Assembly: GCF_039904985.1 (NCBI RefSeq)
Contig: NZ_CP157005.1
Span: forward strand, 3,243,501 to 3,307,500
Direction of reading: 5' to 3'
From: Methylomonas sp. AM2-LC
GTDB taxonomy: Bacteria; Pseudomonadota; Gammaproteobacteria; Methylococcales; Methylomonadaceae
Length of the DNA stretch: 64,000 nucleotides
Both the position numbers and the translations under genes were made by a program. Shown here piece by piece: positions 44,122 to 56,272 of this stretch. The notes under the pieces were generated by a model. It was not told where the DNA came from. It did not search any database and saw only the letters and a list, made by a program, of their open reading frames with translations. Numbering within the stretch: position 1 is the stretch's first letter; every line of letters starts with the position of its first letter.

Positions 44122-44154
44122 AACATTCGTTCTGATCATGTCGAAGCACGAACG
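44122..44154. repeat. REP-like repeat fragment at the 5' end of draT
   Basis: CGTTCTGATCATGTCGAAGC followed by ACGAACGG is a copy of the GTTCG...TGTCGAAG...CGAACGG type of intergenic repeat, related to the nested palindrome in 21613-21680. It is followed by a run of T residues. It supplies the upstream ATG of the draT frame. Confidence 0.55.
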
Positions 44155-45109
44155 GCCTTTTTTTCAATTTCAATCAACAAATTTTCATCATCAGCCTTGG
44201 AAATTTGGCTGTAGAAGCTTTTACAACGATTTATATTTAAACATGAGTAATAACTATCTGGGCGGCTATAGCAGTAATCTATTGGGTATATCTACGGCAT
44301 TTTTGGCCTGCGAAGGTTTTAATGTACAGCCAGGGGGATTACATATTGCTGGTACCCGCGAGGCAGCAGTCAGTTTGTTTGCGGCATTGACAAAACTGGT
44401 TGCCACAGGGCTTGGACAAACTGAACGTTCTGATGAAGAATTACCTGATAACAATACCAGCCTACGTTTGCATTGCGGGCGGTTGTTTCAGGCTTATATG
44501 TGCGATGTGTTTGGATATGAAGATGAACAGAAGTGTAAAGACGCCTCAGGACGGCGGCGTTACCGTAACAGTTATTTAAGTTTGATACAGGATTGGGGGC
44601 TGGATTCTAATAATGCACAGGCTGCGGTTTTGAAAGGTTGGGTGGAAAGCCGATTTGGTTTGTTTCCAAGTTTTCATAAACAGCCTATTAACAGTTTTAT
44701 GGGGCATGATTGGCTAATTTATTGCTCCGAAAAAATGCACAGCCGTTATCATAATAACTGTATTTATATGCAGTTGGATTTGTTGTACGAATATTGCCAA
44801 TGGGTAATAGAGCAGCTGCATTACCCTGCCCGCTCTCACAAGACTCTGTATCGCGGAGTAAATACACTGACTGATTTGCGCGAATACCTTGATGAAACAG
44901 GCCCGTATCAGGTGCTAAAATTTAACAGTTTAGTTTCTTTTACCGATAGACGCAGTATTGCAAGCGAATTTGGTGCTTATATTCTGGAAGTGCAAGTACC
45001 CATGTCGAAACTGATGTTTTTTAACGAATTGTTACCGCAACATGCTTTACATGGCGAAGCTGAATATCTGGTGATTGGTGGTGATTATCGGGTACGGGTA
45101 TTGCGCTAA
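44138..45109 (+). CDS. draT: NAD+--dinitrogen-reductase ADP-D-ribosyltransferase DraT
   Basis: 323 residues from 44138, or 288 from the ATG at 44243 (MSNNYLGGYSSNLLGIS), which fits the usual DraT length better. Family signatures are NLLGISTAFLACEGFNVQPG, NAQAAVLKGWVESRFGLFP, HNNCIYMQLDLLYEYCQWV and the C-terminal GEAEYLVIGGDYRV. DraT switches off nitrogenase by ADP-ribosylating an Arg of NifH when ammonium or darkness/energy stress appears. draG follows after 80 bp. No nif genes are in the window. Neither start has a strong ribosome-binding site, and the upstream ATG lies within a repeat. Confidence 0.9.
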   Translation: MSKHERPFFQFQSTNFHHQPWKFGCRSFYNDLYLNMSNNYLGGYSSNLLGISTAFLACEGFNVQPGGLHIAGTREAAVSLFAALTKLVATGLGQTERSDEELPDNNTSLRLHCGRLFQAYMCDVFGYEDEQKCKDASGRRRYRNSYLSLIQDWGLDSNNAQAAVLKGWVESRFGLFPSFHKQPINSFMGHDWLIYCSEKMHSRYHNNCIYMQLDLLYEYCQWVIEQLHYPARSHKTLYRGVNTLTDLREYLDETGPYQVLKFNSLVSFTDRRSIASEFGAYILEVQVPMSKLMFFNELLPQHALHGEAEYLVIGGDYRVRVLR

Positions 45110-45189
45110 GCGTTTATTGATCTAAGCGGCACCACATTTATGGCTTGCCGATACAGCCAGATAAATATCATTCTTTTTTAGGAACCAAT

Positions 45190-46077
45190 ATGCCACAAAC
45201 TTTAAATGATCGGGTATTGGCTGCGTATCTGGGATTTGCATGCGGAGATGCGTTGGGGGCAACAGTCGAGTTTATGCGGCCTAAACAGATACAACAGCGT
45301 TATGGTGTACATAAAGACATTATAGGCGGTGGCTGGCTGGGATTGACTGCTGGTGAGGTAACGGATGATACACAAATGACACTGGCACTTGGGCAGGCTG
45401 TGCTAGAACAAGGGCGCTGGGATATTAAAGCCATTGCCGATCAGTTTATACAATGGCTGGATACTAATCCGCCTGATGTGGGAAATACCGTACGGCGTGG
45501 TTTGTTACGTTATCGTACTACTGGCGAATTATTTACTACACCCAATGAGAAGGATGCCGGAAATGGCGCTTGTATGCGCAATTTGCCGGTAGTGTTGCTC
45601 ACTTTGCAGCAACAACACACTTTTCATGAATGGAGTTTGCAACAATGTCATCTGACGCATAACCATCCGCTTTCAGATGCCGCAACCTTGGCTTTAGGGG
45701 CAATGCTGAGGCATTTGTTGTTGGCAGAAGATGGGGTGGCTCGGTGTCAATTTGAGGCTAATCGCTTGCTGCATATTCATCCAGAATTTAGTTATACCCC
45801 CTACCCCGGCAAAGCGTCTGCTTATATAGTGGATACAATACAGACTGTGCTACATTATTTTTTTAGCACCCACAGTTTTGAGGAATGTGTGGTTGCTACC
45901 GTTAATCAGGGCGATGATGCAGATACCACTGGCGCACTCGCAGGTATGCTGGCAGGTGCTTATTACGGCCTGGAACACATTCCGAAACGCTGGTTAAATC
46001 AATTGGATAAGAACATTGTCACCCAAATTCGTCATCAATCTATTGCGCTGCGACAAATTAACAAACTTCAGGCATAA
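45190..46077 (+). CDS. draG: ADP-ribosyl-[dinitrogen reductase] hydrolase DraG
   Basis: 295 residues from the ATG at 45190, chosen because AGGAA lies 5 bases upstream; a longer frame from 45145 adds 15 residues. The binuclear metal motifs are GEVTDDTQMTLALG near the N-terminus and VNQGDDADTTGALAGMLAG near the C-terminus. DraG removes the ADP-ribose that DraT puts on nitrogenase reductase, restoring activity. The pair implies the organism fixes nitrogen. Confidence 0.92.
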   Translation: MPQTLNDRVLAAYLGFACGDALGATVEFMRPKQIQQRYGVHKDIIGGGWLGLTAGEVTDDTQMTLALGQAVLEQGRWDIKAIADQFIQWLDTNPPDVGNTVRRGLLRYRTTGELFTTPNEKDAGNGACMRNLPVVLLTLQQQHTFHEWSLQQCHLTHNHPLSDAATLALGAMLRHLLLAEDGVARCQFEANRLLHIHPEFSYTPYPGKASAYIVDTIQTVLHYFFSTHSFEECVVATVNQGDDADTTGALAGMLAGAYYGLEHIPKRWLNQLDKNIVTQIRHQSIALRQINKLQA

Positions 46078-46156
46078 AGAACGAACATGAAGCATGATTT
46101 AAATCACATTGCCAGACTACATAGTAGCCGTAGGTGTAACCCAATATTTGTCTAAT

Positions 46157-46174
46157 TATACAAAATATTGTATA
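46157..46174 (+). promoter_or_regulatory. Palindromic operator before the toxin-antitoxin pair
   Basis: TATACAA and TTGTATA are perfect 7-bp arms separated by 4 bases, ending 8 bp before the toxin ATG. Autorepression by the antitoxin HTH protein is the likely use. Confidence 0.55.
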
Positions 46175-46182
46175 TTTGAAGT

Positions 46183-46518
46183 ATGAAAAACCTAAAGCCA
46201 ATCGAATTCTGCGGCAGCTCTCTTGACGATCTTCGTGCTTTTCCAATTACGGCTCGGCGTGAAGCAGGTCATCAACTCGACCAAGTACAGAACGGACAAG
46301 AGCCGGACGATTGGAAGCCCCTAAATACCGTGGGGCAAGGGGTAAAAGAAATTCGGATTCGAGATGCCTCTGGAGCATTCCGAGTCATCTATGTAGCCAA
46401 GTTTACCGATGCCGTCTACGTTCTTCATTGCTTCCAGAAGAAAACAGAAAAAACAAGCAAAGCTGATTTAGACTTAGCAGCGAAACGTTACCGGGAATTA
46501 TTGAAGGAGAAAGGCTAA
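46183..46518 (+). CDS. higB: RelE/HigB-type toxin (Gp49-like)
   Basis: 111 residues. The frame matches the Gp49-like/DUF891 branch of the RelE superfamily (VGQGVKEIRIRDASGAFRVI, AVYVLHCFQKKTEKTSKADL). Such toxins cut mRNA at the ribosome. The toxin-first order and the one-base overlap with the HTH gene (TAATG) are typical of higBA loci. Confidence 0.85.
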   Translation: MKNLKPIEFCGSSLDDLRAFPITARREAGHQLDQVQNGQEPDDWKPLNTVGQGVKEIRIRDASGAFRVIYVAKFTDAVYVLHCFQKKTEKTSKADLDLAAKRYRELLKEKG

Positions 46519-46799
46519 TGAGCAACCAACAATTTGCCAGTGTCTGGGATGCAATTGAAGATACCCAGGAAAACGCGGAAAACATGAAATTGCGCTCCAT
46601 TCTCATGATGGCGTTAAAAAATCATATTATTAACACTGGAATAAGTCAGGCAGAAGCCGCAAAGCATCTCGGTATAACTCAGCCGCGAGTTTCCGACCTG
46701 ATGCGTGGCAAGATTAACCTATTTGGCCTTGATGCACTGGTAAACATGGCAACAGCAGCCGGACTGCATTTAGAATTACGGATACTTGATGCTGCTTAG
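46518..46799 (+). CDS. higA: HigA-type antitoxin, XRE-family HTH
   Basis: 93 residues. The HTH is GISQAEAAKHLGITQPRVSD followed by LMRGKINLFGLDALVNM. It should neutralise the upstream toxin and repress the operon through the nearby palindrome. It is the last gene before the duplicated ppc tail and the retroelement module. Confidence 0.86.
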   Translation: MSNQQFASVWDAIEDTQENAENMKLRSILMMALKNHIINTGISQAEAAKHLGITQPRVSDLMRGKINLFGLDALVNMATAAGLHLELRILDAA

Positions 46800-46849
46800 A
46801 GCTTTAGCCAAAGGATGCGGTTCGTTCTTCACCACATCCTGCCAGCTCT

Positions 46850-46965
46850 GCGGACGATTAATGCTATTGCGGTGGGAATGAAAAATACGGGTGCCAGCCT
46901 TAAAACAGCAGACACTTCGAAAATATTTACAATGTTTGGATAACCCTTAAACACATTAGCTACGA
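46850..46965 (+). pseudogene. Diverged duplicate of the ppc 3' end and downstream region
   Basis: The plus strand encodes LRTINAIAVGMKNTG, matching the end of PEP carboxylase (LRTINAIAAGMRNTG at 43872-43918). The following about 75 bp match the ppc downstream region position by position (shared ATGTTT-GATAACC-TTAAACA-TTAGCT-CGATC). Relative to ppc it lacks about 41 bp between two AATACGGG repeats, which includes the ppc hairpin. draT, draG and higBA lie between the two copies. Confidence 0.75.
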
Positions 46966-47124
46966 TCTGTAGCGCCAGCGTACTCGCGGTATTAAGTAGC
47001 CAACCAACCTTTGACTAAACTAAGCCAATATAAGTAAACTGTAGGTATTGGACAGCTGGTCTATTCAAAGCACCACTAAATCGGCTAAGCCACCCCGTGA
47101 TTTAGCTTAGCATTATCGCGGCTA
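46957..47124. repeat. MITE-like element A, left flank of the retroelement module
   Basis: 168 bp with imperfect inverted ends (TAGCTACGAT and ATCGCGGCTA). It is closely similar along its length to element B (55057-55222): shared TGTAGCGCCAGCGTA, AAGTAGCCAA, CAATATAAGTAAACT, CTATTCAAAGCACCA. The two lie in the same orientation on either side of the module. No transposase gene is inside. Confidence 0.8.
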
Positions 47125-47212
47125 TGCAGGCTAACAGAGAAATAGCCGCACAACTAGCACGCCAGCTTAATAGTGACCCACAGCCCTGGCAACCCGTCCT
47201 CCGCTTGTGCCC

Positions 47213-47233
47213 CACGCGCTACCGCCGCGCGTG
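47213..47233 (-). promoter_or_regulatory. Hairpin downstream of VR1
   Basis: Plus-strand CACGCGC and GCGCGTG form a 7-bp perfect stem with a 7-nt loop, 46 nt beyond the end of VR1 (47280). The same structure lies 47 nt beyond VR2 and none follows TR. DGR target genes are known to need such a hairpin or cruciform for homing. Confidence 0.75.
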
Positions 47234-47271
47234 TCCCAAGCGGCTGCCGGATTGCCGCCTGCCTGACTGGC

Positions 47272-48069
47272 TCACTGACCTCGGGACAGGCGAAAACCGA
47301 TGCGCTGGGAAGCGTAGTCAGGATGGTCGTAGAAACGGAAGGCGGAACGGCAGATCCTGCCATTGAAGTTCCACGACCCACCGCGCAACACACGGGCAGC
47401 GCCACTGTCTTCGCCTGTTGGATCGGTTGCTTGGTCGGGTATATATTTGCCATAATAATCTAGACACCATTCCAAAACATTGCCGTGCATTTCGTACAAA
47501 CCCCAGGCATTAGGCGGCAGGGTTTTTACTTCCACGGTTTGCTCTCGATACTCACTGACAGGTCCATTGTTATAGGGAAATTGTCCATCATAATTGACCT
47601 GACTGGCATCAATCTGCTGACCAAAATAAAACGGTGTTTTTGTGCCAGCACGGCAAGCATATTCCCACTGAGCCTCGGTGGGCAAGCACAAAGCCAATTC
47701 GGGTTTAATTTGGTTCAGGATGTTAATAAAGGCATTGGCATCGTCCCAGCTTACAGTTTCTACAGGTTTATTTTCACCTTTAAATTTGCTGGGGTTATTT
47801 TGCATCACTGATTGCCATAAGGCTTGGGTGACAGTAGTATCAGCCAACCAAAAGCCCTTGGTTAACAGGACACTATGTTGGGTTTCATCATCTTCTCTTT
47901 GTGATTCGTCTTCTGGAGAACCCATCAAAAAACTACCCGGCTCTATCCAGCGAAAAACCTGCTTTATACCTTTGTAGCTAAAAGCCATCCACAAACCGAA
48001 TTGGTCTTGTCCCCAACCAGAAGCCCAAGGTTCGGGGAATTGTGTGGGGTAAACTTTGGGGTTAGGCAT
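47272..48069 (-). CDS. DGR variable protein 1: FGE/SUMF1-fold (C-type-lectin-like) protein
   Basis: 265 residues forming one formylglycine-generating-enzyme-like domain (FRWIEPGSFLMGSPEDE, KPVETVSWDDANAFI, LPTEAQWEYACRAGT, NAWGLYEMHGNVLEWCLDYY, RVLRGGSWNFNGRICRSAFR, GFRLSRG). The active-site Cys pair of true FGE enzymes is not conserved, so it is probably a binding protein. Residues 223-263 are encoded by VR1. The stop follows VR1 by 6 bp. The gene begins 13 bp after the open stretch that follows TR, where a reverse transcriptase gene would normally lie. Confidence 0.93.
   Translation of the reverse strand: MPNPKVYPTQFPEPWASGWGQDQFGLWMAFSYKGIKQVFRWIEPGSFLMGSPEDESQREDDETQHSVLLTKGFWLADTTVTQALWQSVMQNNPSKFKGENKPVETVSWDDANAFINILNQIKPELALCLPTEAQWEYACRAGTKTPFYFGQQIDASQVNYDGQFPYNNGPVSEYREQTVEVKTLPPNAWGLYEMHGNVLEWCLDYYGKYIPDQATDPTGEDSGAARVLRGGSWNFNGRICRSAFRFYDHPDYASQRIGFRLSRGQ
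47280..47403 (-). repeat. DGR variable repeat VR1
   Basis: 124 bp aligned without gaps to the template repeat 48231-48354. Reading on the minus strand, VR1 differs at 15 of the 29 TR adenines (for example AAC to GCC, TTC, ATC, TCC and CGC) and at one other position (TR T, VR C). It ends in the invariant GGTTTTCGCCTGTCCCGAG, the presumed initiation-of-homing site. It encodes the ligand-binding face of variable protein 1. Confidence 0.95.
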
Positions 48070-48230
48070 AATAGTGTTAATTTATAAATAGGCGGCCGAC
48101 CAATGGGCGTTCAATACTGACGTAATTTTACTAGCGCAACTGGCGGCCTTGGTTTTTGCCTGTCTGGTAAACTTTAGACAGGACTGGATGCAAGCCTGGT
48201 CATATGCACTCTTTCCAACAGTACAGTGAG

Positions 48231-48354
48231 CTCGGGACAGGCGAAAACCGATGTTCTGGTTAGCGTTGTCAGGATGGTTGTAGTTACGGTTGGCGGAACG
48301 GCAGTTCCTGCCATTGTTGTTCCACGACCCACCGCACAACACACGGTTAGCGCC
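48231..48354 (-). repeat. DGR template repeat (TR)
   Basis: 124 bp, minus strand, carrying 29 adenines, most of them in AAC codons (in-frame reading GGSWNNNGRNCRSANRNYN). It begins 25 bp after the stop of the HRDC gene and ends about 160 bp before variable protein 1. It is non-protein-coding in function: the RNA serves as template for adenine-mutagenised cDNA. The bases immediately after CGAG are CTCACTG, against GTCA in the VRs, a typical IMH*/IMH difference. No hairpin follows. An open frame through it (48082-48375) is fortuitous. Confidence 0.93.
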
Positions 48355-48379
48355 AATATGGCATACACCCAACATTATT

Positions 48380-48793
48380 TTATACCAAAATCGGCGGATG
48401 TACGCTTAAGTTTTGTTTACGCCAACCTTTGGTTGTAATCCGCTGTTGTATCATCACCGCTAGTTGTTCATTAGTAAACAAGGCATAGGGTGGCACGTTT
48501 TGCTGTTCTGCTAAATCTTTCCTAAAATTCCGCAATTCAACATACAAGGCAAAATCAACTTCGCTTAAAATCTGTTTATAATCAACCGTAGCTTTGGCAC
48601 TGCTATTTATGGCTGTAGAAGGAACCCCATCACCCTCTAGCCAGGCAATACAAAACGACCAAAAGCTGTTAGCACCGTCCATTACCAAATGTTTTTCGAT
48701 AAAACTAATTCGATGACTACTACAAAACGCATTTAACTGGCTTTCTATAGATTCTGGATTTGTAGCGGGTATGGCGAAAAATTTGTATTTCAT
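48380..48793 (-). CDS. DGR accessory protein with HRDC domain
   Basis: 137 residues. The N-terminal half (MKYKFFAIPATNPESIESQL, DGANSFWSFCIAWLEG) resembles the leader of HRDC proteins found next to DGR reverse transcriptases. The C-terminal half is an HRDC domain (VDFALYVELRNFRKDLAEQQ, NVPPYALFTNEQLAVMIQQR). HRDC proteins replace Avd in a subset of DGRs and are thought to help the reverse transcriptase/RNA complex. The start overlaps the stop of the 1016-residue variable protein by 4 bp. TR follows 25 bp after its stop, so the usual order accessory-TR is kept while the reverse transcriptase is missing. Confidence 0.85.
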   Translation of the reverse strand: MKYKFFAIPATNPESIESQLNAFCSSHRISFIEKHLVMDGANSFWSFCIAWLEGDGVPSTAINSSAKATVDYKQILSEVDFALYVELRNFRKDLAEQQNVPPYALFTNEQLAVMIQQRITTKGWRKQNLSVHPPILV

Positions 48794-51700
48794 TTTTTAA
48801 ACCGTTTTGTTATTTTAGATAAAAGGCTTTTATCCGCCAACGTGTTATCGCTATCCCGCAGGCCGTCCCCCGCCTGTGTCCCACGCGCTACCGCCGCGTG
48901 TGCCCCATCCGGCAGCCGGTCTGCTGCTGCCTCACTGTACTCATGACCTCGGGACAGGCGAAAACCGATGTACTGGATAGCGAAGCCAGGAGGGGCGCAG
49001 TCACGGTAGGCGGAACGGCAGCGCCCGCCAACGTCGTCCCACGACCCACCGCGCAACACACGGTAAGCGCCGCTAGCTGGGCCATGTGGGTCGGTTACTT
49101 GTTTGGATGTATATTCGCCATAGTAATCCTGACACCATTCCAATACATTGCCGTGCATTTGATATAAACCCCAGGCATTCGATGGGTAGCTTTTATTTTT
49201 TACCTCTGTTGTTTCGCGTAAGGCATTATTTGCCCATTTATCAACTTCGAATTCCCAAGTACCCCGGTAATTGACTAAAGCAGTTGAAAGGGATTCTTTA
49301 AAATTGAACGCTGTTTTGGTTCCTGCCCGACAGGCGTACTCCCATTCTGCTTCAGTGGGTAAACGTAAATCTAAAAAAGGTTGCTTCTGGTTAATTTTTT
49401 GCAGAAACACTTGCACATCATCCCAGCTTACATTCTCTACCGGCCTTTCCGTACCTTTGAAATAACTAGGTTTATCGCCCATTACCGCTTGCCATAAGGC
49501 CTGGGTACAAGCCGTATCTGCCAGCCAGTAACCCTGGCTGAGTATTACCTTGTGTAAGAGTTCGTTTGAATTTCTACCCTCTTCATCATCTGGATAACCC
49601 ATCATAAACTCGCCGGGTTGTATCCAACGAAAACGTTGGATAACTCCGGCGATGTTGACATCGGCATACAGGCCATATTCATCACGATAGAGTGGATAAG
49701 GCCAATCTTCGCTAACTACTGCATCTAGTTGGGGGCGGTACCACCAAAAACCTGGGCAGGTTAGTACTTTTGATGAGTGTTCATTAGGTTGAAGTTGTTG
49801 CCCTTTAAGAATGGGTGGCTGCCAATACCAGGTGAAGTATTGATCGGCATTATTGCGGGTCTGCATACTGGTATAAGTACCTTCCATGCTAATTCCAGCC
49901 ATATAAGCTGGCAAATTCTCCTGATCTAAGGCTTCTATTTCAAATATTTCGTTGTTGATTTCTATTGAGTGAGTGCCGGGGAGTAAATCCAGCATTACCG
50001 GTTCAGCAGTGTTTAAATCCAGACTATAGGTGTGTGATTTTCCCTGTGTATCTGTATACGCATAGATAACGGTATTTTGTATAAACGGCAACCCCAACAC
50101 CACCACCGGAGCGCCCCACTCCTGCTCAGCATAGGCTTTAGAGGCACTACTTAACTTTAACTGGGTACCCACTTGGCAAAGTAATAGTTGTTGCAGGGGT
50201 TCGCCAGCTGGCAAAAATTGTCTGAGTAATTCTTTTGGGATATCTTCCGGCCATTGGATGGCGGGTTTGGTTTTATCATCATTGCGTAGGGTAACCAAAA
50301 TACGCATGACTTGTTGTTGTTGGCTGAATGGATAGTCTTTGGAAAAGGCCAGACGGGATAGGTAGCGGTTTGCCCAATTGTTCAGTCCATGATGATTTTC
50401 ATAACGGTAATAACTTTTAATTAACTGTGGAAGATAATCGTCTATAGCCTGCTTAATACTATCCGGTAATTCAATACCCAGTCGTTGTAATTCAGACAAC
50501 ACTTCAAAATAATGTTCATCGGCAATCTGGGCATGATGGGTAGCAATATGCCAAATCAAGCTTTGTTGCTGAGCGGTAGTCAATTGCTGAAACTGGCTTA
50601 AAAACTCGGGTAAGTAAGCCGCTTTACTGTCAGGCATCCAACTCCAATCACTTTGTTCCGTATCTTTTAAATGGGGTTGGCGACGAAGGGCTACTTCAAC
50701 ACTGGCATCGCAAGCTGGCGGCAATAAATAGCGAATACTTCTTAACAAACCGGGACTAACCTGAATAGCCGGATAGCAGAGTGCCAACAGTGTTTTGATG
50801 AACTGCTGCTCATCGTCGATAGTGGTGCCAATCGAATCGCTATTCTGTGGTTTTAAATTGCTGTGCCTATCCCAAATGATACAGTTGTAAAAATGCAGTA
50901 AACGTAGGTCGAGCTTTCGACAGGCGACTGGTAATAATACAGTAGGACGTAAGCCATATTGTTTAAGCTGTTGACCAAAGGCCAACCAATTATCTACGGC
51001 ACCATCATTATTACTATGCAACCCCAGATCGGATAAAATCAACAGTGGCGTACTGTTATCCGGCATTTGCCATTGCGCATAAACAGGTTTTTTTCCACGG
51101 TAACGAACAATTTCTTTACCGGGTTCGGCACGATGCACAAATTGAACATCCAAGCCTTCGCTGCCACGCCAATCTCGCAATTTATGATGCAAAGCATGAT
51201 AATCCTGACGAAAAGGTATAGAGTCTGGGTTATTATCTATGAGTAACCAAGATTGGCTTTTCCAGGTATAGCGATGTTTTTTCGGCAAGTGTGTTAATTG
51301 CTGACAACTGGCTTGCCACTTTACCAGCTTGTCTACATCGGGATTGCGTCCTGGCTGATTGCCACCCAATGTTTTGAGTAAAACCGGTAATAATCTACTC
51401 CAAGGTATAAGTGGTGGATAGCTAACCGTAATCCGATGCTCACGGGGGGTAAATCTTTTATTTTGTGACAACACATCACCAGCCTGTTCCAACCAGTTTA
51501 CAATTGACATAGACTGATCTTCCACCTGTTTTTGTTCACGATGGATAACTCGAAAATAACTGCTACTCGCTATTTTGGCGGACTCTTCGCTATTCGAATG
51601 CGGCGTTGAGTCAGTTTTTATGTAAGTTTCTGTTACAAACTGCTGAAATTGCGATTTTCCATCATTTTCTTTTTCTGTTTTTATATCGGTTAGCGGTTCA

Positions 51701-51840
51701 AACTTTAGTAGCCGCGCAACATTAGCTTGCTGTGTCTCAGTTAAGGGTGGTCCTGAATAGAAGCCCCACAATAAATCTGCATAGCCAACACTAGAGTGCG
51801 GCAATTGCCATTTATATAATTTGTCAGGCTGATGAGACAT
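48790..51840 (-). CDS. DGR variable protein 2: large conflict-system protein with C-terminal FGE-fold domain
   Basis: 1016 residues. The N-terminal part (about 1-330) has a segment LLILSDLGLHSNN that recalls a degenerate vWA/Rossmann-like fold. A helical middle follows (about 330-600). The C-terminal FGE/SUMF1-like domain (about 725-966) has FRWIQPGEFMMGYPDDE, RPVENVSWDDVQVFL, LPTEAEWEYACRAGT and NAWGLYQMHGNVLEWCQDYY. Residues 924-965 are VR2-encoded. Unlike variable protein 1 the frame runs 50 residues past the VR through the hairpin region. It lies in one operon behind the MoxR ATPase gene (18-bp gap) and before the HRDC gene. Probably a ligand sensor feeding the ATPase. Confidence 0.88.
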   Translation of the reverse strand: MSHQPDKLYKWQLPHSSVGYADLLWGFYSGPPLTETQQANVARLLKFEPLTDIKTEKENDGKSQFQQFVTETYIKTDSTPHSNSEESAKIASSSYFRVIHREQKQVEDQSMSIVNWLEQAGDVLSQNKRFTPREHRITVSYPPLIPWSRLLPVLLKTLGGNQPGRNPDVDKLVKWQASCQQLTHLPKKHRYTWKSQSWLLIDNNPDSIPFRQDYHALHHKLRDWRGSEGLDVQFVHRAEPGKEIVRYRGKKPVYAQWQMPDNSTPLLILSDLGLHSNNDGAVDNWLAFGQQLKQYGLRPTVLLPVACRKLDLRLLHFYNCIIWDRHSNLKPQNSDSIGTTIDDEQQFIKTLLALCYPAIQVSPGLLRSIRYLLPPACDASVEVALRRQPHLKDTEQSDWSWMPDSKAAYLPEFLSQFQQLTTAQQQSLIWHIATHHAQIADEHYFEVLSELQRLGIELPDSIKQAIDDYLPQLIKSYYRYENHHGLNNWANRYLSRLAFSKDYPFSQQQQVMRILVTLRNDDKTKPAIQWPEDIPKELLRQFLPAGEPLQQLLLCQVGTQLKLSSASKAYAEQEWGAPVVVLGLPFIQNTVIYAYTDTQGKSHTYSLDLNTAEPVMLDLLPGTHSIEINNEIFEIEALDQENLPAYMAGISMEGTYTSMQTRNNADQYFTWYWQPPILKGQQLQPNEHSSKVLTCPGFWWYRPQLDAVVSEDWPYPLYRDEYGLYADVNIAGVIQRFRWIQPGEFMMGYPDDEEGRNSNELLHKVILSQGYWLADTACTQALWQAVMGDKPSYFKGTERPVENVSWDDVQVFLQKINQKQPFLDLRLPTEAEWEYACRAGTKTAFNFKESLSTALVNYRGTWEFEVDKWANNALRETTEVKNKSYPSNAWGLYQMHGNVLEWCQDYYGEYTSKQVTDPHGPASGAYRVLRGGSWDDVGGRCRSAYRDCAPPGFAIQYIGFRLSRGHEYSEAAADRLPDGAHAAVARGTQAGDGLRDSDNTLADKSLLSKITKRFKK
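48882..48900 (-). promoter_or_regulatory. Hairpin downstream of VR2
   Basis: CACGCG and CGCGTG form a 6-bp perfect stem with a 7-nt loop, 47 nt beyond the end of VR2 (48948). The flanking sequence is similar to that around the VR1 hairpin over roughly 85 bp. It lies inside the reading frame of variable protein 2. Confidence 0.75.
48948..49071 (-). repeat. DGR variable repeat VR2
   Basis: 124 bp, gap-free alignment to TR. It differs at 19 of the 29 TR adenines and at the single non-adenine position also seen in VR1. VR1 and VR2 differ from each other only at TR-adenine positions. It encodes RVLRGGSWDDVGGRCRSAYR followed by DCAPPGFAIQYIGFRLSR. Confidence 0.95.
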
Positions 51841-51858
51841 TCTTGAGTGTGGGTGTGG

Positions 51859-52878
51859 TTAATCAGTTAGCATTTGCGGGTATTTGCGCATTGTGTATTT
51901 GCTGATTGTATTTAACATAGCAACATGTTGTTGCGGATCGTTTTTACCTAACACCACAATGGCTCTTAACATATCCAAATACTCTGCCTGTCCTGGAAGG
52001 TGGGTTAAAGATTTATCACGAGCACGTTCGCGTTCGCGCAATAATAATTTGGCAGCACTTCTGTAAATATCTTCAGAACAAGCTTCTTTAAAATGTAGTT
52101 GCGCCCGATCTATCATCAAATTGATAAACGCATCGTCTTCTTTGGGTAAATCCAGATGCAACACCAGACAGCGACGCACAAATGCTGCCGGTAACTCGCG
52201 CTCTTCGTTAGTGGTGATTATGACTAATGGCGGCAGGTGTTCACCACCACCGATAGGGGTGTCTAACCAAGGAATAGTGACAGCGTTATTGCCAAGGATT
52301 TCCAATAGTCCATTTGGTAATTCCAGATTGGCTTTGTCTATTTCGTCAATCAATAACACACTACCTTGCCCAGGCTGCCATTCAGCATTTGGGCGTTCCG
52401 GTTTTATTAGCTGATATTGACTTTTATCATAAGTATCTTCCGCCGTCTTCCAATCCAAGGCCCACCAGATGACACCCGGCGAAATAAATTTTTTACAATC
52501 CAGTAATTTTTTTCGGTCAACGGTATCCAGTTGTTGGCCTTGCAGAGTTTGCGCCTCGGCTAATCTGGCAACGGCATCAAAACGCCATAGTAAGTCTTGG
52601 CTTTCGGTATGGGCGTCAATTACTTGATAAACAAATAAACGATCTAGCGCATAAGCAACAGCCCTGGCTAATTGACTTTTCCCTGTGCCGGGTTCGCCAC
52701 GTAACAACAGCGGCCGCCCAGCGGCTAAAGCCGTGCGTAATGCGTCAAGACTGTCTTCATCAAATTTATGCACTGATTGCGGCCAAGAACCATTAGCTGG
52801 CAGTGTTTGCTCGCTTATATTTTGCAGTTTTTCGATATCTGCGATAATTTTTTGCCTATCGATCATTTGTTTTTCCAA
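51859..52878 (-). CDS. MoxR-type AAA+ ATPase
   Basis: 339 residues. Walker A is GEPGTGKS (61-68), Walker B is SVLLIDEIDKA (173-183), sensor 1 is VIITTNEERELP, and an Arg-finger-like region is AAFVRRCLVLHLDLP. MoxR ATPases act as chaperone-like remodelers, usually with vWA or similar partners. Here the partners are the upstream PRTase-like protein (16-bp overlap) and the downstream variable protein. A start at the Met at 52866 is also possible. Confidence 0.9.
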   Translation of the reverse strand: MEKQMIDRQKIIADIEKLQNISEQTLPANGSWPQSVHKFDEDSLDALRTALAAGRPLLLRGEPGTGKSQLARAVAYALDRLFVYQVIDAHTESQDLLWRFDAVARLAEAQTLQGQQLDTVDRKKLLDCKKFISPGVIWWALDWKTAEDTYDKSQYQLIKPERPNAEWQPGQGSVLLIDEIDKANLELPNGLLEILGNNAVTIPWLDTPIGGGEHLPPLVIITTNEERELPAAFVRRCLVLHLDLPKEDDAFINLMIDRAQLHFKEACSEDIYRSAAKLLLRERERARDKSLTHLPGQAEYLDMLRAIVVLGKNDPQQHVAMLNTISKYTMRKYPQMLTD

Positions 52879-54677
52879 ATTTTATAATATTCTTTAATTG
52901 CAGAAGCCAAATATTTATTATTAAACCAGAATATCTGCTCAGAGAGATCAGATTTTAGAATAATCCAATGTAATTCAGGTATATTTTCATTAGCCCAATT
53001 GACTACTTCTTCCTCAGCGGATGAAATATCACTTATTTGCCAAAAAAAACTTTCACGGTATTTATAATCGCTACTGATTTTACGGTCACCCATTTGGTTA
53101 TTTAGATTTGTAGCATTATTCTTATTGCGTTTAACTTGTTTGTCTTCTGGCAAATCCTCAACATTAAACATGTGCTGATCATCTAGATGAGTATCACTAT
53201 TAACTATTTCATTCAGTTTCGACAAAAACTTTGAAATTCGTACATTTAAGCGAATACTACTATCTTGCACTATGCTACTGTCTTTATTTTTATCGTTTAA
53301 TCCATAAGGCAAATACTGATGCAGTCTGGCATGAATAACTTTTAGCGTGTTCAAATCAAGGTCTGGCCAAAAATATTTTTGTCCATTTTGCTTTTTCTGA
53401 TTGATAGCTATCCATTGATCTTCTATAGTGAAGAGTAATATCTTATTAAGAAGGCGCTCTGCCAAGCTACTAATTTCCGCTTTATCTATCTCAGAGTTTG
53501 TATTATTTGTTTTTAATTTATCAATCAGATTAGAGAAAACTGTGCGCAGTTTGTCTATCAAAGCACCCAAATCCTTTTCTTTTTTACGGCAAGATTGGAT
53601 AAAGATTTCTGTCAATTGGTGAGCTGCAGCATCAATTAATATTGGCTGGTTTGAGTCTACTTTGTCTGGCAAAAACACTGATTGCATTTCTTTTAGTACT
53701 AAGCCATTTTCTTCTAAATCCGTAATGATGGAATTCTTTATTTTGCCTAAAAACTCTTTATCTTTACTAGACGGAACATCATCTACACCATCTTGTTTTT
53801 GATCTTGTTTTTCGTCCGAATCATTTAGTTTATTAACATCTTTTGTTAAAGAGCTTGTTTTTGAGCGATAAGTAAACAATGGCTGCCAACGATACGTTTC
53901 ACTGCCCTCGCTCCAAATAAGCGGCAAGGTATTATTGGGACACTGAAAATGATATACGGTTAATAGTGCAGTATTGCCATAACCTAATGGTGTATCGGGC
54001 TGAATTTTTCCACCTAATTCCTGTATACGAATAAACTCATCATGGCTAAAGATTTTAGAAGCACTACTAGCAACATAATCTGGAAAAACTTGAAATCCCT
54101 CTGTGTTAAATCGTTTATGAGCAGTCTCTGCAATGGTCAAGGCCACAATAATAATTTTATTGCTGGCAATGCCAGTTTTCTTTAGTTTTGTCCAAACAGT
54201 TCTTATAAACTGATCGCCACTTCCATGAGTATCGTTTACGAATAACAAATATTTGTCGCCAACGTTAGCTTTTGTAAGCTGCTCTATGTTTATAACATTT
54301 TTTCCGGGTATCCCCTCAATCTTTGAAATCAACCAGCCATGTCGATAAGCACTATCTACTTTGTTATCCGGCATTACTAATAGGGTATTATTATTTTGTC
54401 CTTCAATATAAATACCTTTTCTGGTTAATGCCGCCAAATGGTCTGTGAATTTTTTTTCAACTTGAGCTTCATTATAATACTCTAATGAAAATATAAGTTT
54501 GAGTGCCAAATCAAAGTCTTTCTTTTCATAGTTAGAAATCCATGCACCAAGCCTTTCATAAAATCCAGGGTTATTTAATAGCCAATTTTTTATTCTATCT
54601 GACAGTTTATCGAATCTGCTATCCTTGTCATAATAGAGTTCGTTCAAAAATGGATGGCAATTAGCAAGTTCATTCAT
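52863..54677 (-). CDS. PRTase-like conflict-system protein (first gene of the DGR operon)
   Basis: 604 residues with an AGGA ribosome-binding site. Residues 100-260 resemble a phosphoribosyltransferase-like fold: LLFVNDTHGSGDQFIRT (PRPP-loop position, 144-160) and a later GYGNTALLTVYHF followed by CPNNTLPLIWSEG (247-258). This combination is a hallmark of the PRTase-CE type found in bacterial conflict loci. The charged region 270-600 has no recognised fold. It may sense or make a nucleotide signal or act as effector; this is inference from family context. Confidence 0.65.
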   Translation of the reverse strand: MNELANCHPFLNELYYDKDSRFDKLSDRIKNWLLNNPGFYERLGAWISNYEKKDFDLALKLIFSLEYYNEAQVEKKFTDHLAALTRKGIYIEGQNNNTLLVMPDNKVDSAYRHGWLISKIEGIPGKNVINIEQLTKANVGDKYLLFVNDTHGSGDQFIRTVWTKLKKTGIASNKIIIVALTIAETAHKRFNTEGFQVFPDYVASSASKIFSHDEFIRIQELGGKIQPDTPLGYGNTALLTVYHFQCPNNTLPLIWSEGSETYRWQPLFTYRSKTSSLTKDVNKLNDSDEKQDQKQDGVDDVPSSKDKEFLGKIKNSIITDLEENGLVLKEMQSVFLPDKVDSNQPILIDAAAHQLTEIFIQSCRKKEKDLGALIDKLRTVFSNLIDKLKTNNTNSEIDKAEISSLAERLLNKILLFTIEDQWIAINQKKQNGQKYFWPDLDLNTLKVIHARLHQYLPYGLNDKNKDSSIVQDSSIRLNVRISKFLSKLNEIVNSDTHLDDQHMFNVEDLPEDKQVKRNKNNATNLNNQMGDRKISSDYKYRESFFWQISDISSAEEEVVNWANENIPELHWIILKSDLSEQIFWFNNKYLASAIKEYYKIWKNK

Positions 54678-54729
54678 TCCGGTTCCTTTCTAACAGATTC
54701 TTTTATGTTAATATTGTCAGCTATGGTTG

Positions 54730-54735
54730 ATTATA
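54730..54735 (-). promoter_or_regulatory. Possible -10 element of the conflict/DGR operon
   Basis: TATAAT on the minus strand about 53 bases before the ATG at 54677. No good -35 is visible at 16-18 bp, so support is weak. Confidence 0.25.
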
Positions 54736-54775
54736 CATAGCATTTTGACTAAAAAGAATAGCCGTTAGCGTATCT

Positions 54776-54841
54776 AAAGTGGCGTAGGGAGTTACGTTTC
54801 GAATTTCACTCAGCTAATGCAACCTCGCAACTAACCCGCTC
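54776..54841. repeat. Dispersed repeat related to 4596-4671
   Basis: Begins GTGGCGTAGGGAGTTACGTT and ends AACTAACCCGCT, a diverged copy of the GGCGGGTTACG...TAACCCGCC element downstream of acnB. It lies 100 bp upstream of the conflict operon. The rest of 54842-55056 shows nothing recognisable. Confidence 0.45.
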
Positions 54842-55056
54842 TTCTGAAATTATGAAAAGATTAATACCTGACTGGTTACTCTCCAGCCAAGTATTATGTC
54901 AATGTATTGAACCATCCATGATGGGGATTACTGTATAGGCCATAACAACATAGTAAAGGCTTTTTTGTTAATAGTATGTTTGTAGGATGCTAGTGAGAAA
55001 GGAACTGCATCAATAAGAATTATGTGTGCTTATGCTTATTGTTAATATTTAGCGCG

Positions 55057-55222
55057 TAGCCGCGATTGTAGCGCCAGCGTAATCGCGGATTTAAGTAGCC
55101 AATCAACCTATAGCTAAACTAAACCAATATAAGTAAACTATTAGTAAAAGACAGCAGGCCTATTCAAAGCACCATCTAATCTGCTAAGCCTCCGGCAATT
55201 TAGCTTCGCATAATTACGGCTA
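55057..55222. repeat. MITE-like element B, right flank of the retroelement module
   Basis: 166 bp with inverted ends (TAGCCGCGAT and ATTACGGCTA) and clear similarity to element A (46957-47124) over the full length, in the same orientation. It lies 380 bp upstream of the conflict operon and 150 bp before the second toxin-antitoxin pair. Confidence 0.8.
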
Positions 55223-55372
55223 CTTGGGCTTAGATTAGCCAGTGCCTATACTCCTTTTACTGCCTATGACGTGGATTTAATTTGGTAAAGTTAACTTATT
55301 AGTTGAATCTTAAGTACAATATTATGAAGCAGCTTTTGAAAGAACGGGTTTTAGCGGAGCAGCGTTAGAGGG

Positions 55373-55708
55373 ATGAACGATATGAAAGCATTAGGTTTGT
55401 TACTTGATGATATTCAAACGGCGATTAATGCCGATCAAATACTTTGGAAACGCCACACTTTAGAACGAATGTTGCAACGTAGCATAAGTCGGCAACAAGT
55501 CAAACAAGCTATTTTAGCTGGTATGATAATAGAATGTTACCCAGACGATCATCCTATACCAAGTTTACTTCTAGCAACAGGACAACCTGAAGCACTGCAT
55601 GTAGTTTTGGGCTATGATGCTAATACTGGCCTATGTCACATAATTACAGCCTATCGACCTAATTTAACCCATTTTGAAGCGGATTTAACTACGCGGAGGA
55701 TTTCATGA
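55373..55708 (+). CDS. DUF4258 protein, probable toxin of a type II TA pair
   Basis: 111 residues. The C-terminal DUF4258 pattern is visible (LWKRHTLERMLQRSISRQQV then ECYPDDHPIPSLLLATGQPE and LHVVLGYDANTGLCHIITAY). DUF4258 proteins resemble RelE/MqsR-type toxins and are usually paired with a YgiT-type zinc-finger gene, as here (4-bp overlap). Toxicity is inferred. Confidence 0.8.
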   Translation: MNDMKALGLLLDDIQTAINADQILWKRHTLERMLQRSISRQQVKQAILAGMIIECYPDDHPIPSLLLATGQPEALHVVLGYDANTGLCHIITAYRPNLTHFEADLTTRRIS

Positions 55709-55965
55709 CCCACTCAAATACGCTTTGCCCTGTCTGTCATGGTGGACGTAAACAGCCTGGCCGAACTACTTTTACTGTCGAACTAGGTTTTGGTGTAGTC
55801 GTGGTGCGCGATGTACCAGCACAAGTTTGCGATTTGTGCGGTACCGACTGGTTGGAAGACACGGTTGCCGAAAAACTGGAACAGATTGTCGAACAAGCCC
55901 GTTTAAAGCATCCTGTTGTAGAAGTGGCTAACTGGCCTAAGGATATACAGGCTTTAGCTTCTTAG
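55705..55965 (+). CDS. YgiT-type zinc-finger (MqsA-like) antitoxin
   Basis: 86 residues. Two CxxC pairs (CPVCHGG at the N-terminus, CDLCGTDW further on) surround a beta segment, the YgiT/MqsA N-terminal zinc finger. The usual C-terminal HTH is missing, so it matches the short YgiT-only form that accompanies DUF4258 toxins. The start overlaps the toxin stop by 4 bp. Confidence 0.82.
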   Translation: MTHSNTLCPVCHGGRKQPGRTTFTVELGFGVVVVRDVPAQVCDLCGTDWLEDTVAEKLEQIVEQARLKHPVVEVANWPKDIQALAS

Positions 55966-56272
55966 GCTATAGTTTAGCAGCACTATCCAATTTTTATAAT
56001 TCAATCCTATTTGAACTGGTCCTACGATTGTATGCGTTTTAAAGTGTAGGTGCAATGGAAATTGCTGTTTGATAAAAGCCCATAATAGCTAGCATTGACT
56101 CCTGCAAAATCAGCCTGTTTTTCTTAATTTGTTGACGCAAGCTAAATATAGTGGACTTCGAAAAACCTAATTTTTTGTGCTTCAACAAGGCTATCCTTAG
56201 TTGTATCGAAGACTGGTTTTTCGAAGTTCCTTATAGTTTATGGCAAGCCAGACAAATTCATAAACCACTAAC
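55966..56272. other. Intergenic region before the Kir channel gene
   Basis: 307 bp with no gene; its right part holds palindromic repeat copy 3. Confidence 0.5.
56148..56236. repeat. Palindromic dispersed repeat, ACTTCGAAAAACC family, copy 3
   Basis: 89 bp. Ends TATAGTGGACTTCGAAAAAC and GTTTTTCGAAGTTCCTTATA, centre TTTTTGTGCTTCAACAAGGC and TTGTATCGAAG, matching copies 1 and 2. It lies 36 bp before the Kir channel start. Confidence 0.85.

Follow-up and report, generated by a model that had tools for sequence, protein, structure and literature searches.

We analysed a window of 64,000 nucleotides from Methylomonas sp. AM2-LC (NCBI RefSeq assembly GCF_039904985.1, contig NZ_CP157005.1, positions 3,243,501 to 3,307,500 of the forward strand), which contains a diversity-generating retroelement (DGR) with an HRDC accessory gene and no detectable reverse transcriptase (RT) gene. 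It is highly probable that this HRDC-type DGR lost its RT, likely through an in-frame deletion of about 1.08 kb that left a shortened HRDC gene running into the final 14 codons of the RT, and that it is probably unable to rewrite its two FGE-fold targets. The locus is best read as a DGR that was decapitated recently and is now frozen, within a predicted MoxR/FGE conflict system. Coordinates below are window positions, and all genes of the locus, like its repeats and its RNA element, lie on the minus strand.

Repeats, gene order and the missing reverse transcriptase

The template repeat (TR, 48231..48354) and two variable repeats (VR1, 47280..47403; VR2, 48948..49071) aligned without gaps over 124 nt on the coding strand. 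Among the 29 adenines of the TR, 15 were changed in VR1 (9 A>T, 3 A>G and 3 A>C) and 19 in VR2 (9 A>G, 7 A>T and 3 A>C), while the 95 other positions held a single mismatch, TR position 19, which was the same in both VRs. Apart from this shared position the substitutions were confined to TR adenines, and the adenine bias (Fisher test, p = 1.4e-10 for VR1 and 3.2e-14 for VR2) ruled out chance repeats. These recomputed values agreed with those of an earlier sequence-only reading of the window; an alignment with mostly non-adenine differences, which that reading had named as contradicting it, was not obtained. When the genome was searched with the TR, three copies were recovered, all at this locus, and no further TR or VR copy was found at E ≤ 0.001. 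The two VRs lie at the C-termini of variable protein 1 (VP1, 47272..48069), a short target of 265 aa in an open frame, and variable protein 2 (VP2, 48790..51840), of 1016 aa with a long N-terminal extension without Pfam match. Both proteins end in an FGE-sulfatase domain (PF03781). The HRDC gene (PF00570) directly upstream of the TR was likewise confirmed, and the spacer of about 160 bp between TR and VP1 measured 161 nt.

A GC-rich, hairpin-forming segment lies downstream of VR1 (47189..47258; 47189-47279 folds at z -4.8) and has a counterpart of 81% identity downstream of VR2 (48858..48927; 48858-48947 folds at z -2.2). Both resemble the target-site hairpins known from other DGRs.

No RT gene was found at the locus by tblastn with 14 HRDC-type RTs over 46001-56000, nor by 84 RT queries over the 3 kb after the HRDC start. 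The second finding that could have overturned the sequence-only reading, an RT concealed in a different frame or lying close outside the recognised ones, was rejected by the same tblastn search and by negative searches of the organism's own genome. The absence of an RT from the locus was thus borne out, and what remains there is an RT-like tail of 14 codons.

The family was surveyed with an HRDC protein search of 301 genomes of the order, 118 of which gave some match, mostly weak and partial. Besides the window's own copy there were 17 matches at E ≤ 1e-25; these and one partial match made up 18 stretches that were studied. A contig scan supplied the best 80 of 139 candidate loci, many of them on the same contigs, and with each locus counted once and the window included, 84 loci (designated by L numbers) were obtained. 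A strict rule passed 59 of the 84 as RT-intact and 12 were added by hand, 11 with both motifs and L091 by a profile match, giving 71. Paralogous targets gave long matches between variable protein genes in the repeat detection.

The typical order in relatives was AAA, long FGE target, HRDC, RT, TR, spacer and short FGE target. HRDC, RT and TR followed each other in this order in 62 of the 71 RT-intact loci; an FGE match lay within 1.5 kb after the TR in 43 of these and none was found in 19, some of which end there. As for the other RT-intact loci, six had no TR that could be found, two were not resolved and one (L073) had its TR upstream of HRDC. The window shows the family order of AAA, long target, HRDC, TR and short target with the RT slot empty. 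Since 62 of 71 RT-intact loci have the RT placed after HRDC and before the TR, and a short target follows the TR in 43, VP1 after the TR is normal and the empty slot of the window is the HRDC-TR junction. The premise that the RT normally follows the TR and that VP1 stands in its place was therefore abandoned: in this family the RT mostly precedes the TR (62/71), and 43 of the 71 loci have a short FGE target after it. Rather than an unusual DGR layout, as had been suggested, the locus is most likely a deletion in the usual one. The closest relative with DNA compared, L057/L079 from uncultured Methylococcaceae bacterium VK_bin-0278, has an FGE target, HRDC (73% identical), TR, spacer and VP1 ordered as in the window, but differs in having an RT of 335 aa with IGSLTSQ and YMDD between HRDC and TR. 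Two other relatives had peculiarities of their own. In L073 the TR and the RNA element described below are upstream of a short FGE target, with HRDC and RT coming after this target, and L080 (from 8001) has an internal TAG in the HRDC frame, though its RT, TR and VRs look intact.

The HRDC frame and the state of the template

The HRDC accessory frame (48380..48793) encodes 137 aa, consisting of about 123 HRDC residues and 14 in-frame RT-like codons. It parallels its relatives to residue ~122 and thereafter reads WRKQNLSVHPPILV up to the stop codon; the RT of L057 terminates in WRKQNLFHHPPLAV, also followed by the stop. The tail (48380..48424, 14 codons plus stop) is a likely fossil of the RT 3' end. 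It was identical to the end of the L057 RT at 34 of 45 nt, whereas no other position on the two strands of L057 exceeded 24 of 45. As blastn of the junction against L057 gave no alignment, this match was first recognised by eye, and an ungapped scan then supplied the counts. The RT end was likewise the best-matching position in L081 (28/45). The window's stop codon lies 25 nt upstream of the TR, and the RT stop in L057, L080 and L081 lies 20-22 nt upstream of it, with TR bounds as set by the detector. From the L057 coordinates the missing stretch amounts to about 1,075 bp, and we infer a single deletion event. The HRDC domain itself is shortened: only profile positions 2-43 of 68 were matched, and the C-terminal part, kept by 15 of the 16 other sequences in alignment A1, is absent. 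The full-length relatives in that alignment (n = 15) have 152-173 aa.

No near copy of the HRDC protein, fused or full length, was found in a search of 5.8 billion proteins, in which the best match after the protein itself was 73% identical. A search of 37 genomes of the genus with the window DNA gave no near copy of the locus; outside its own genome there were matches of 64-91% only, plus one exact stretch of 24 bases in two genomes. Among 64 HRDC homologues, 59 had HRDC-like C-termini, the window and P0008 had RT tails, and three were short or unclear. P0008, on a metagenome contig of 1,120 bases, is an independent HRDC::RT-tail chimera in which, as in the window, the HRDC start is fused in frame to RT C-terminal sequence. 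It differs in keeping about 35 RT residues against 14 in the window, and its surrounding DNA was unseen. The search that found it favours open frames. At the level of titles and the beginnings of abstracts, neither an RT-deleted DGR nor an RT-deleted HRDC chimera was found in the literature.

TR position 19 (window 48336) is T in the TR and C in both VRs, where adenine changes flank it on both sides. The corresponding Arg codon has C in the TRs of 14 relatives, as judged by eye. Since the relatives and both VRs agree on C, the TR of the window has most simply been substituted after the last homing. By one criterion, TR-specific differences from two VRs at once were present in all three RT-defective loci compared (window, L110 and L111) and in 3 of 36 RT-intact loci (L072, L118 and L121), p = 0.002. 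L082 and L104 were left out of this test, as apparent indels displace their second VR; counted as negatives they change the comparison to 3/5 versus 3/36, p = 0.017. Both p values are rough, since the loci share ancestry and the choice of tests followed inspection of the window. Of the two outcomes proposed in the sequence-only reading, the one in which the RT was lost and the locus frozen is supported by the likely scar at the HRDC-TR junction and by the TR substitution absent from the VRs. In L104, an RT-deleted locus, the VRs around 690 and 3142 look shifted relative to the TR by insertions of several bases.

A conserved structured RNA element is located 3' of the TR (48089..48230), as in the family. 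With a model of 142 positions, defined in this analysis and built without the window, it scored 82.6 bits and was intact by this score. Covariation was observed in 21 relatives, where 12 of 16 predicted pairs were changed on both sides. The element was found in 65 of the 84 loci (the window and 64 others, training loci included), and no Rfam match was obtained in 47000-49200 at E up to 1. Judged by the model, the template RNA of the window looks intact, and the element may serve in recognition.

Other reverse transcriptases and alternative explanations

A search of the genome for RTs gave 14 matches, none at this locus. The whole-genome search proposed in the sequence-only reading did reveal one other DGR-type RT (L015:3944-5488), with motif 4 IGNLNSQ, YCDD and a C-terminal MutS_I match. 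It belongs to an apparently complete Avd-type DGR (L015:3944-7014) containing bAvd, an Lcl_C target and its own TR and VR, the TR overlapping the listed RT start. This DGR lies at about 4.877-4.880 Mb of the genome (G000 C1), 1.59 Mb from the window locus at 3.29 Mb. Its VR is changed at 17 of 44 TR adenines and has no other mismatch. We take the C-terminus of its Lcl_C target to resemble a PEP-CTERM-like sorting tail. An HRDC-type RT query matched group II-like RTs and the Avd-type DGR RT at 24-32% identity, whereas the RTs of 13 relatives share 45-58% with the same reference; no HRDC-type RT was found elsewhere in the genome with this query. The group II-like RTs were rejected as drivers of the cassette, since the six distinct RT frames read (besides that of L015) have QGG..SP at motif 4 and not.G...SQ. 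The remaining RT places among the 14, not all of which were read, score the same as these frames.

Several observations weigh against loss of the RT by deletion and freezing of the locus. The TR of L073 stands upstream of HRDC. The best match of the tail in L080 is elsewhere (24/45), the RT end giving 23/45, and with a nearest relative only 73% identical in HRDC the breakpoints are approximate. One TR substitution is thin on its own, and such differences, specific to the TR and shared against both VRs, occur in 3 of 36 loci with an intact RT too. A looser detector gave a shared difference in 6 of 42 two-VR loci (window, L111, L121, L087, L094 and L099), those of L087, L094 and L099 lying ≤ 9 nt from the 3' end. 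Furthermore, one DGR RT encoded in the genome appears to be working, as judged from the VR of the Avd-type DGR, and a population variant with an RT could escape the assembly.

The last two points lead to rival explanations. If the Avd-type RT at ~4.877 Mb copied the TR RNA of the window as well, the cassette would be active in trans, as the sequence-only reading had offered as its other outcome. That RT has both DGR motifs, its own VR looks freshly written, and trans activity within a class has been reported for Thiohalocapsa PB-PSB1 in a passage of Dore et al. 2024 (PMC10907252). However, the enzyme has its own Avd and TR, shares only about 28-33% identity with HRDC-type RTs, and its locus lacks the RNA element as far as our model could find it. 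No TR or VR matching the resident TR was found, the three matches of the window TR being all at the window locus; the HRDC partner is truncated, and neither VR received the substitution at TR position 19. Trans action is therefore unlikely, and we give it the lowest standing of the alternatives considered. Alternatively, sister strains or a fraction of the population may retain the RT, so that the assembly represents the deleted variant of a polymorphic locus. In Thiohalocapsa, according to the same part of that paper, long reads revealed structural variants in which broken DGR loci were intact. This explanation seems improbable for the window, as no near copy appeared among the 5.8 billion proteins, the best other HRDC being 73% identical, and the genome is assembled in 3 contigs with completeness 100.

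The fused HRDC::RT-tail could also be a derived working protein, for example one holding TR RNA or VR DNA. Its frame is open, P0008 provides one independent chimera with a different RT breakpoint among the 64 homologues, and in-frame RT deletions occur in L082 and L104 too. Nevertheless, the protein lacks the C-terminal part that 15 of 16 other A1 sequences keep, one deletion in three is expected to leave the frame open, and the search that yielded P0008 was biased to open frames; we regard a working fusion as very unlikely. In the preferred explanation, an RT with HRDC would originally have copied TR RNA with adenine errors into both VRs, and the in-frame deletion would then have brought the shortened HRDC gene and the 14 terminal codons of the RT into one frame. 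The locus would thereafter have no cognate enzyme, and its two targets would be fixed yet could still act as sensors of the predicted MoxR/FGE conflict system. Retention of the frame may have spared the downstream VP1 polar effects.

The operon, recurrence of RT loss and significance

Upstream of VP2 lie a gene for a MoxR-like AAA ATPase (51859..52878, identified by its AAA_5 domain match) and a PRTase-CE gene (52863..54677), whose product is a candidate effector of the predicted conflict system. From PRTase-CE to HRDC, adjoining frames overlap or are ≤ 20 nt apart. PADLOC gave weak matches for AAA and HRDC, its PRTase_III-A models matched the PRTase-CE protein, and neither FGE protein had a PADLOC match. 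A role of this operon in MoxR/FGE conflict is predicted. An imperfect direct repeat (82%; window 46957-47108 and 55057-55206), with no other match in the genome, brackets the whole operon and is a possible boundary of an acquired unit. Beside the operon are a toxin-antitoxin-like pair of Gp49-like and HTH_37 genes (46183-46799) and, adjoining the locus, a pair encoding DRAT and ADP-ribosylglycohydrolase of the nitrogenase regulation type (44138-46077).

Of 81 assessable loci, partly sorted by hand, 10 had no RT or a broken one; three loci cut by a contig end (L096, L119 and L149) had been dropped from the 84, a set built in part on the best 80 of 139 candidates. The count becomes 8 of 79 if the distant L141 and L142 are set aside, in which neither RT nor TR nor RNA element was found. 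L082 and L104 have in-frame RT losses of about 97 residues, including the catalytic motif, and about 110 residues, respectively. In L110 the deletion is out of frame and the motif reads YMYD, L111 has TMDD and a frame change near the RT end, and L140 lacks the RT start. No RT was found in L084, L074, L141 and L142. TR and RNA element persist in 5 of the 10 RT-defective loci (window, L082, L104, L110 and L111), and the element was not found with the model in the other five. When the genomes of six loci were checked, further HRDC-type RTs were found elsewhere for L104, L140 and L084 (strong) and L110 (weaker), and none at E ≤ 1e-8 for L082 and L074. Trans help is thus thinkable in some RT-defective loci.

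HRDC-type DGRs, with a MoxR-like AAA and two C-type-lectin (CLec)/FGE targets, share with the window the TR, the VRs and, in the relatives searched, the 3' RNA element. They resemble clade 5A of Dore et al. 2024, which in part describes DGRs linked to MoxR whose two CLec targets are a short and a long one, as well as degenerate loci and trans action between members of a class; the portion of its main text consulted does not mention HRDC by name. Compared with clade 5A-like DGRs, the window has no RT, a truncated HRDC joined to RT-like codons, and PRTase-CE as a neighbouring candidate effector. In the degenerate DGR loci of Thiohalocapsa PB-PSB1, as that portion describes them, machinery is missing or pseudogenised and targets keep their VRs, as in the window. 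There, however, the damage is ascribed to transposons and MITE-like repeats, and RTs of the same class occur in the genome, whereas the window has a likely simple deletion and no same-class RT was found in its genome. FGE domains and DGRs have been linked to MoxR conflict systems in a section of Kaur et al. 2020 (PMC7159879). In the part of Schillinger et al. 2012 (PMC3521204) that deals with arrangement, DGRs with the TR downstream of the RT form one of four groups, and DiGReF, presented there, starts from the RT. As finders of this kind start from the RT, a locus like that of the window would escape them; the count of RT losses (10/81) and the covarying RNA beside the TR can be put to use in DGR finders.

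An apparently exotic DGR layout has thus become a traceable event, in which the RT was removed, its last codons likely stayed as a scar and the template began to drift. We tentatively raise the doubtful idea that RT excision is a recurrent off-switch for hypermutating immune sensors, in-frame deletions keeping TR, RNA element and both targets having arisen several times (window, L082, L104, and P0008 with flanks unseen). If true, RT excision would lock a successful sensor pair and leave the template ready for a later RT of the same class. If the repertoire of this predicted immune system is frozen, it offers a direct test of whether diversification is dispensable once a binder has been found.

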